A stretch of 64,000 nucleotides of DNA from Burkholderia sp. SRS-46 (GTDB taxonomy: Bacteria; Pseudomonadota; Gammaproteobacteria; Burkholderiales; Burkholderiaceae), in the NCBI RefSeq assembly GCF_004343775.1, contig NZ_PTXL01000001.1, positions 496,001 to 560,000 on the forward strand, written 5' to 3'. A program made the position numbers and the translations under genes. The first letter of the stretch is position 1; the number at the start of each line of letters is the position of its first letter. The notes under the pieces were generated by a model. That model searched no databases. It was not told the origin of the DNA and saw nothing but the letters and a program-made list of their open reading frames with translations. This document shows positions 23,067 through 37,053 of the stretch, in pieces.

Positions 23067-25490
<2,424 letters not shown>

Positions 25491-35451: not shown

Positions 35452-36471
35452 TCAGGCTTCGCGAAGCTGCCGGGCGGCCGGCGCGACCGTCGCGCCGTCG
35501 CGCACCGTGTGCGGCAGGATCCGCGACGCGCGTTCGATCGGCTTGCCGCCGATGGATTCGACGAGGCGTTGCCATGCGTGCCGGCCGATGTCGCGGTTCG
35601 GCGACGCGATGCTCGCGAGCGGCGGCGCGAGCAGCTCGCCGATCGCGATGCCGTCGAAGCCGAGCACCGAGATGTCGTCGGGAATCGAGAAACCCGCGCG
35701 CCGCAGGCCGCGCATCACGACCATCGCCAGCAGGTCGTTGCTGCAGAACAGCGCGGTCGGGCGCGTCGTGCGCGCGGTCAGGTGCGCCAGCACCGCGTCG
35801 GGCAGCTCGGGCGCGTTGAAGTCGACCTCGACCGGCGGCAGCGGCGCGATGCCGCTTTCCTCGAGCGCCTGCGCGTAGCCGAGATGGCGCTGCCGCGCGC
35901 GATCGGACGCGGCGAGCGAGCCGGCGAGCATCAGCACGCGGCGATGGCCGCGCGCGGTCAGCATGCGCACGCCGTCGTACGCGGCGCGGCGGTTGTCGAC
36001 CGACACCGACGGGCGGCGCTGCGTGTCGTTGTGCATCAGCACGTAATGCGGGCCGTCGTGATCGAGCATGTCGAGCAGCGGATGCGTGTCCGCATCGGCG
36101 ACCGTCAGGATCAAGCCCTCGACGCGCTGCTCGCGCAGCGTCTCGATCGCGTGACGCTCGCGCGCCGCGTCGTATTCGGTCGTCATCAGGATCAGCTTGA
36201 AGCCGGCCGCGGTCGCGAGCTCGTCGATCCCTTGCAGGCAGTCGGCGAACACGGGGTTCGCGAGGGTCGGCAGCACGACGCCGACGAGCCGCGTGCGCTC
36301 GCCGCGCAACTGGCGGCCGAGCGGGCTCGGGCGGAATTTCAGCGTGTCGATCGCGGTGCGGATCGCCGCGAGCGTCGACGGGCTGACGGTATGCGGCGCG
36401 TTGATCGCACGCGACACGGTGGCGATCGAGAAGCCGGCAAGCGCGGCGACATCCTTGATGGTCGGGGTCAT
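35452..36471 (-). CDS. LacI-family transcriptional repressor
   Basis: A 339-residue regulator. The N-terminal LacI HTH reads TIKDVAALAGFSIATVSRAIN with the hinge SPSTLAAIRTAIDTLKFRPSPLGRQLRG, followed by a periplasmic-binding-like effector domain. It lies directly upstream of the ABC importer operon in the same direction and is likely co-transcribed with it. A twin operator (36487-36523) just upstream of its start indicates autorepression of the whole cluster. The inducer is unknown. Confidence 0.92.
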   Translation of the reverse strand: MTPTIKDVAALAGFSIATVSRAINAPHTVSPSTLAAIRTAIDTLKFRPSPLGRQLRGERTRLVGVVLPTLANPVFADCLQGIDELATAAGFKLILMTTEYDAARERHAIETLREQRVEGLILTVADADTHPLLDMLDHDGPHYVLMHNDTQRRPSVSVDNRRAAYDGVRMLTARGHRRVLMLAGSLAASDRARQRHLGYAQALEESGIAPLPPVEVDFNAPELPDAVLAHLTARTTRPTALFCSNDLLAMVVMRGLRRAGFSIPDDISVLGFDGIAIGELLAPPLASIASPNRDIGRHAWQRLVESIGGKPIERASRILPHTVRDGATVAPAARQLREA

Positions 36472-36486
36472 GAGGGGAGTGCGATG

Positions 36487-36523
36487 TAAACGTTTTCGGC
36501 GAGGGCATTATCGAAAACGTTTA
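36487..36523. promoter_or_regulatory. Twin LacI-type operator
   Basis: TAAACGTTTTCG (36487-36498) and CGAAAACGTTTA (36512-36523) form a perfect 12-bp inverted repeat around a 13-bp spacer. Each arm by itself contains the AAACGTTT palindrome of LacI/PurR-family operators, so two dimers could bind with centres 27 bp apart. It begins 16 bp upstream of the lacI-type start. Confidence 0.75.
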
Positions 36524-36710
36524 TGACTTTCCGATGACGCGTGAAGGGGGCGAATCGAAGCAGCGCGCGCACGGAATCGTGTGAAGGATGAGGCGGCGAT
36601 GCGTGGCCCATTGTAGCCGTGGACGGGGTGGGCGCTGTCGAATCCGACGGTATTCGACAGGGTCAAACGCGGAACGTGGCGCAAGCAGTGGTAGAATCCC
36701 GTCCGCCCTT

Positions 36711-37053
36711 GCCGGGGTGATGAAATTGGTAAACATAGCGGACTTAAAAGTTTGAGTGCCCAGCCGGAAACGGCCGGTGCAGAACCCTTCAAATTCGGCG
36801 AAACCCCTGATGCGATGCATCGAGGCAACGCCGAGCCAAGCCTGGCGGCGCACGCGCACGCGAGGAAGGTGTAGAGACTAGACGGGGGGCGCCTAAGGCG
36901 CACGGGCGACAGCGTCGGCCCGCACGCGATGGTGAAGGCATAGTCCAGCGCACGAACGGCATCGCCCAGACGACGCCGGCTTCGAAAGAAGCAGTGTGAC
37001 GAAAATCCGCCGCCTTAACTGGCTTGCCGGTTCGAGTCCGGTCCCCGGCACCA
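36711..37053 (+). tRNA. tRNA-Leu (anticodon UAA), interrupted by a group I intron
   Basis: Exons 36711-36745 and 37002-37053 join to an 87-nt class II tRNA. The acceptor stem is GCCGGGG/CCCCGGC with an encoded CCA end. The anticodon stem is GCGGA/TCCGC around loop CTTAAAA, giving anticodon UAA (Leu). A long variable arm and the T-loop TTCGAGT are present. The insertion lies between U34 and A35, the site used by tRNA-Leu(UAA) introns of cyanobacteria. The gene would be non-functional without splicing unless another copy exists. Confidence 0.95.
36746..37001 (+). ncRNA. Group I (IC3-type) self-splicing intron
   Basis: A 256-nt intron in the tRNA-Leu anticodon loop. The 5' splice site follows U, and the guide GAGU (intron nt 9-12) pairs with exon ACUU, leaving the required U-G pair. 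The intron ends in G. Conserved core blocks are present in order: AAATTCGGCGAAACC, GGCAACGCCGAGCCAAGCC, GAAGGTGTAGAGACTAGACG, CCTAAGG and GGTGAAGGCATAGTCCAG. These are nearly identical to the Azoarcus tRNA-Ile intron. There is no homing-endonuclease frame. Confidence 0.93.

Follow-up and report, generated by a model that had tools for sequence, protein, structure and literature searches.

A very probably self-splicing group I intron in the tRNA-Leu(UAA) gene of Burkholderia

Does a short segment of the Burkholderia sp. SRS-46 genome encode a leucine tRNA interrupted by a ribozyme and, if so, where does the intron come from and what depends on it? We addressed this question in a window of 64,000 nt, by which we mean the whole stretch of DNA analyzed. 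The original prediction had placed a tRNA-Leu(UAA) gene at 36711–37053, with U34 and A35 separated by a group I intron of 256 nt. Plain ARAGORN called no tRNA anywhere in the 64,000 nt. With introns allowed, it returned tRNA-Leu(taa) with a 256-nt intron and the split between gactt and aaaat, reproducing all predicted coordinates. The exons, once joined, were typed as the same tRNA, the outcome that had been anticipated for the spliced sequence. The locus comprises the following features:

35452–36489, minus strand: divergent gene for a LacI-family regulator, which marks the locus (Pfam).
36689–36697, plus strand: TGGTAGAAT, an extended −10-like promoter element with a GC-rich stretch after it, located 13 nt 5′ of the tRNA (comparison of upstream regions).
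36711–36745, plus strand: 5′ exon of tRNA-Leu(UAA), whose last base is U34 (called by ARAGORN in intron mode and from the joined exons).
36746–37001, plus strand: group I intron of 256 nt, with the terminal omega-G at 37001 (ARAGORN, RF00028 and pair counts).
37002–37053, plus strand: tRNA-Leu(UAA) 3′ exon, with CCA encoded (ARAGORN).

The TGGTAGAAT element was common to 14 of the 15 upstream regions compared, being absent in Niveibacterium; a generic sigma-70 promoter and terminator scan of the region found nothing, this element included.

The earlier expectation that standard annotation may miss the gene applied to Rfam as well as to plain ARAGORN. With the cut-off lifted, the group I covariance model RF00028 was covered in full by 36736–36969 (43.8 bits, E 6.6e-10). 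This score backs the proposed intron class, though it lies under the curated cut-off of 50 bits, which is a library threshold rather than a structural trait and is passed by 20 of the 96 matching genomes in our family sample. At curated cut-offs, the only Rfam match listed in the window was a TPP riboswitch (25126–25243, minus strand, 63.5 bits). At E 0.001, the window intron was the sole RF00028 match in the 8,587,419-base genome. Because a plain tRNA search and the Rfam cut-off both miss the gene, the tRNA sets of genomes like this one may be recorded as incomplete. The folding energy of the gene alone was uninformative (z −1.37, with 11 of 100 shuffles at least as good).

Helices P1–P9 were placed on the window sequence, and their pairs were counted over an alignment of 35 hand-chosen rows, the window included. 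These represent intron-bearing tRNA-Leu genes from Burkholderiales, other proteobacteria and Spirosoma. We take the intron to be IC3-like in subgroup, with these elements:

36751–36757, plus strand: internal guide UUUGAGU (P1 pairs counted, P10 drawn only).
36758–36780, plus strand: P2 with a GAAA loop (L2), GAAA in 35 of 35 rows.
36785–36790, plus strand: 5′ strand of P3, partner 36884–36889; five of six pairs change on both sides.
36794–36835, plus strand: P4 (36794–36799 with 36830–36835), enclosing P5 and P5a (alignment and pair counts).
36836–36869, plus strand: P6 and P6a (alignment and pair counts).
36876–36880, plus strand: 5′ strand of P7, partner 36941–36945; three of five pairs change on both sides.
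36890–36934, plus strand: P8 with CCUAAG...GAUGG (alignment and pair counts).
36949–36998, plus strand: P9 with the P9b GAAA hairpin (L9), GAAA loop in 30 of 35 rows.

The full group I core that had been proposed, P1 through P9, was present. Across the 35 sequences, 95.8% of 1953 cells were paired and two-sided changes affected 34 of 56 pairs, while none of 500 shuffles matched the real alignment on any of five measures. As a control, sliding the partner by 1–3 columns gave a pairing of 30–42%; since the helices were modeled on the window itself, they have a built-in advantage over the slid versions, and more weight attaches to the two-sided changes. P3, P7 and P8 were paired in 100% of the counted cells, so the P3–P7 pairings on which the prediction had been staked were intact, with P3 and P7 additionally backed by paired changes. 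In two rows, two adjacent pairs of P7, the guanosine-binding helix, were altered together, from GACUA/UAGUC to GAGCA/UGCUC. The weakest helices were P5a (85.8%), P2 (90.0%), P6a (90.5%) and the P8 extension (90.5%). The CCUAAG...GAUGG segment of P8 appears, on our reading, to resemble the 11-nt GAAA receptor, with the GAUGG strand departing from the classical motif; these tetraloop and receptor elements were recognized by sequence only, and the P8 receptor strands are variable.

At the 5′ splice site, the guide GAGU (36754–36757) pairs with exon ACUU (36742–36745), with the anticipated U·G at the junction in all 35 rows. The word UUGAG is present in 49 of 51 tRNA-Leu introns. On the 3′ side, the guide UUU can pair with AAA of the 3′ exon to form P10, which was drawn on the window and lies outside the pair counts. 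According to the ARAGORN split, the window intron ends in G at 37001; all 51 tRNA-Leu introns likewise have G as their last base, but a script had cut their ends at GAAAATC, so that these are not independent of that rule.

Because the guide UUUGAGU pairs with both exons, two-step self-splicing started by guanosine, as established for group I introns, would be expected. The intron portion of the transcript would fold into P1–P9, with the P3/P7 core backed by covariation. Free guanosine bound in P7 would then attack after U34, at the U·G pair of P1, and the released exon would attack at the junction following omega-G, with P10 as its guide, to yield an intact tRNA-Leu(UAA). We infer this chemistry, its occurrence in vivo and its independence from an obligatory protein helper. 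With high confidence, we interpret the locus as a precursor tRNA-Leu(UAA) with a group I ribozyme of the bacterial-tRNA (IC3) type in its anticodon loop, and the 256-nt intron is, judging from its sequence, very probably self-excising. An endonuclease frame, said from the outset to be missing, was not found: the ORFs contained entirely in the intron reach at most 57 aa and are not endonuclease-like, and none of five ORFs in or across the intron had a Pfam match at E 1. As no endonuclease is encoded, the intron would not be self-mobile by homing. In relatives, introns contain open frames of up to 100 aa; the Pfam result covers the window ORFs only.

For information about the distribution of such introns, RF00028 was applied at E 0.001 to genome samples of increasing taxonomic breadth. 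Matches occurred in 96 of 299 genomes of the family sample (20 of them above the cut-off), in 32 of 300 genomes at the order level and in 56 of 369 at the class level. All 41 same-genus genomes had a match. Among the matches listed for the joined-exon query, 40 of these 41 showed an exon-2-only match; best E values per same-genus genome (n = 41) ranged from 1.1e-20 to 9.6e-16, compared to 4e-25 to 1e-34 for contiguous copies elsewhere. In the 41st genome, a 270-nt intron was read at the locus (L344), and the sequence was inspected base by base at 17 loci of the genus, not counting the window. The intron is present in every sampled genome of the genus and is, thus, genus-wide in our sample and no single-genome rarity. 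An intron-pattern search identified 68 stretches, assigned by record title: 37 from Burkholderia, 14 from Paraburkholderia, two from Trinickia and 15 from others, including Candidatus Glomeribacter, a Pandoraea MAG, Niveibacterium, a Gallionellaceae MAG, Kiloniella, a Rhodospirillales MAG, Sphingomonas and Spirosoma. Of these loci, 65 resolved as split tRNAs, comprising 64 Leu(UAA) and one Phe (Sphingomonas), which is probably mis-split; in the other three (L132, L159 and L185), the match lay near the locus end. BLAST searches against plasmids returned 14 records; 13 of them belong to Mycetohabitans or Candidatus Vallotia, and the remaining one to Cupriavidus (22% query coverage).

Related introns also reside in other tRNA genes. 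ARAGORN typed 29 family loci (L069–L097) as Leu(UAA) (15), Met/Ile(CAU) (12) and Gln(CUG) (2). From the class sample, three of 30 fetched loci (L384–L413) were typed as tRNA-Leu(UAA) and 16 as tRNA-Gln(CUG), the latter with the split between GGGGACTC and ATC...TGAATCCC, possibly a mis-split of another tRNA. Introns of similar type interrupt tRNA-Leu(CAA) in L353, L359 and L363 between GGGGACTC and AAAATCCC, where C-G instead of U·G would be expected at the 5′ splice site. Introns in tRNA-Thr(UGU) follow a CUU(G) exon end in L357 (same genus, genome G240), L348 and viral L278 and close with GGUAAG, like many Leu introns, so a jump between tRNAs is possible; a further tRNA-Thr(UGU) intron (L202) has a different end. 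Another class (L213, L217, L218, L219, L221, L222, L223, L351, L352 and L354), with the 3′ exon CATAATCC and without the AGAGACT core word, apparently inserts between U33 and C34 of CAU tRNAs, some of its loci being typed otherwise by ARAGORN.

We built two trees, using 25 hand-chosen loci of the 68 from the pattern search and dropping two (tree 1) or three (tree 2) non-Leu rows. Tree 1 comprised 92 introns and 181 columns, including 25 viral tRNA-Leu rows that were script-cut at GACTT and GAAAATC and retained after removal of near-copies. The window intron and 32 other tRNA-Leu introns from Burkholderiaceae/Burkholderiales formed one group (99/99). Several subgroups followed host genera, and the deeper root split was weak (59/15). 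Compared to the window, Burkholderia stagnalis has an intron that is 98% identical in core columns and a LacI neighbor with 99% identity, so we take the host to lie close to this species.

Intronless counterparts were examined in the 30 best joined-exon matches from the family sample, a non-random set that is full-length by selection. All 30, from related genera, were contiguous at the exact junction and read GCGGACTTAAAATCCGC. In four of them (L115, L121, L124 and L127), a LacI-family gene is divergent from the tRNA, encoding proteins with 72–77% identity to the window neighbor. On the LacI side, these four loci share 76–78% DNA identity with the window over ~240 bases; on the side away from LacI, they showed no similarity to it. 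The flanking DNA examined for the other 26 contained no such LacI match. The shared neighbor indicates that, at least in these four cases, intron-containing and intronless versions of one locus occur. We suggest that the intron is an old component of tRNA-Leu(UAA), inherited mainly vertically within Burkholderiaceae and fixed in the Burkholderia sample, and that many relatives would be intronless through precise loss or because it was never gained there.

An alternative is that several Burkholderiaceae lineages gained the intron separately through horizontal transfer, with phage tRNA arrays as one conceivable source. The patchy presence within the family and the occurrence in distant hosts (Spirosoma and Kiloniella, for example) would fit this scenario, as would related introns in tRNA-Leu genes on phage contigs. 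A search of IMG/VR with the core pattern AAGGTGNAGAGACTNGACGG yielded at least 120 stretches, of which 80 were fetched (L224–L303). Split tRNAs could be resolved in 58 and not in 22; those resolved included 28 Leu(UAA), 12 Tyr(AUA), six Arg-UCU, one CAU and one Thr-UGU. The Tyr(AUA) calls are probably mis-split Leu. At least five other tRNAs occurred in the same stretch in 19 of the 48 viral loci typed Leu, Tyr, Arg, Thr or Met. IC3-type introns in phage-contig tRNA genes are seen, for example, in L232, L239, L282, L284 and L298. Among ten large proteins from six intron contigs, nine had matches to PHROGs families, baseplate hub, tail, RIIA and tail fiber among them. BLAST against annotated phages gave seven records, all partial: five with tRNA-Leu-like exon ends and two, both from one cyanophage, corresponding to a psbA intron. 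In tree 1, 15 of the 25 viral tRNA-Leu introns formed a group (98/93) beside the Leu introns of proteobacteria, the two making up 63 rows (96/98); six fell on the tRNA-Ile side, including four that share a starred branch (99/92) with Ile rows, and the remaining four lay elsewhere. Nevertheless, the grouping of Burkholderiaceae Leu introns (33 rows, 99/99), with several subgroups following host genera, and the LacI neighbor common to intron-containing loci and four of the 30 intronless ones speak against repeated acquisition, which we consider unlikely. A 2014 review describes the phage introns observed to that date as all residing in protein-coding genes (PMC3984707). Introns of the same type in phage-contig tRNA genes bear on the question of how tRNA introns move without an endonuclease. 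As a broader speculation, which is improbable in our estimation, bacterial tRNA-Leu(UAA) introns might constitute one large lineage, moved between bacterial groups by phages within their tRNA arrays, of which Burkholderia fixed a copy. UUA decoding and, with it, the few UUA-containing genes would then hinge on a metal-sensitive and GTP-sensitive ribozyme, for the effects of which bldA in Streptomyces provides a comparison.

The original prediction described the core as almost word for word that of the Azoarcus tRNA-Ile intron. This likeness stood for the core motifs only and did not extend to the whole intron, where 115 of 183 shared columns were identical to the Azoarcus reference sequence, compared to 145 of 188 for the tRNA-Leu intron of Niveibacterium. 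In tree 1, 15 tRNA-Ile introns occupied one branch (100/100, branch length 0.97). Tree 2, in which viral rows were left out and Azoarcus and Anabaena reference introns added, had all 52 Leu rows on one side of a 100/100 branch and 16 Ile rows on the other. It placed Azoarcus among the Ile introns with 89% identity to L207, which supports the Azoarcus sequence used; no starred set comprising half of the rows or fewer included the window, and the program issued a warning that long branches met. The separation of Leu and Ile introns in the trees suggests that the Azoarcus likeness reflects core motifs and not close descent. A recent jump of an Azoarcus-type tRNA-Ile(CAU) intron into tRNA-Leu, for example, by reverse splicing, finds some support in the near-identical P4, P6 and P7 motifs, by the occurrence of Azoarcus-type CAU-tRNA introns in the same family and by the six viral Leu introns on the Ile side, with which Leu and Ile are not cleanly apart. 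It is, however, very improbable, given the column identities, the grouping of the window with tRNA-Leu introns from the same genus and family and, without viral rows, the location of all 52 Leu rows on one side. On these sequence comparisons, the window intron belongs to the tRNA-Leu lineage and is no displaced tRNA-Ile intron.

What depends on the intron was assessed through the tRNA complement of the genome, a 23-contig draft with 99.93% completeness. RF00005 had 60 matches, 59 above the cut-off. All 59 were typed by ARAGORN and included seven tRNA-Leu genes, with the anticodons CAA (1), CAG (3), GAG (2) and UAG (1) but none with UAA; the 60th match received no tRNA call. Beyond the locus itself, the joined-exon query detected only tRNA-Leu(CAA) at 80% and weak partial matches in the genome, and CTTAAAATCC recurred at two other genomic places where no tRNA was present. 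The search for another tRNA-Leu(UAA), raised with the prediction, therefore came back empty, and the split gene is the sole UUA-reading tRNA gene found in the draft genome, in which a second copy could lie in a gap between its 23 contigs. UUA accounted for three of 15,949 codons and three of 1,743 leucine codons in 34 window ORFs, which were picked by length and GC3 and are unconfirmed as genes. With UUA this rare, the demand on the gene is small and poor splicing might be tolerated. Decay of the split tRNA to a point where its intron has stopped splicing, with UUA read otherwise or hardly needed, would accord with this rarity and the RF00028 score below the cut-off but is hardly credible in view of compensatory changes that preserve the structure across 35 sequences, exons intact by ARAGORN, a promoter-like element conserved in all but one of the 15 upstream regions and a split gene in all 41 same-genus genomes as well as in three genomes of 1.1–1.2 Mb in the family (L077, L087 and L095).

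With a functional intron, production of the UUA-reading tRNA would appear to depend on a ribozyme throughout the genus. The family also provides close loci with and without the intron for studying intron loss. Among known systems, the tRNA-Leu intron of cyanobacteria inserts after U34, as in the window gene. Group I introns in cyanobacterial and plastid tRNA-Leu(UAA) genes are cited and summarized in PMC4033280 (Paquin 1997 and others). They resemble the window intron in gene, IC3-type core and a P1 with U·G but differ in that the host here is proteobacterial; 96 of 177 shared columns are identical to the Anabaena intron used for comparison, which sits on a very long branch (2.28) and is uninformative about descent. 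The Azoarcus tRNA-Ile(CAU) intron is alike in core motifs and size class and, as predicted from sequence, in its GAAA-loop/receptor design. It interrupts tRNA-Ile, however, and falls on a separate branch, with related CAU introns inserting after the anticodon. The nearest published splicing experiment known to us concerns the alphaproteobacterial tRNA-Arg(CCU) intron BbgpI of Bartonella bacilliformis, which splices in vivo and in vitro (PMC7717549); both it and the window intron are group I introns that hide an unannotated tRNA gene, but tRNA and insertion site differ, and splicing is demonstrated for BbgpI while predicted here. The tRNAscan-SE 2.0 report notes group I introns in tRNA-Ile2 of Acidovorax and Burkholderia (PMC8450103), which share the broad host group and were likewise missed by a standard program but reside in a different tRNA. 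For tRNA-Leu(UAA) introns in Burkholderia, we found no report in the open-access papers searched, and an earlier one in subscription journals is possible. The window intron is of a known type and widespread in the sampled Burkholderia.
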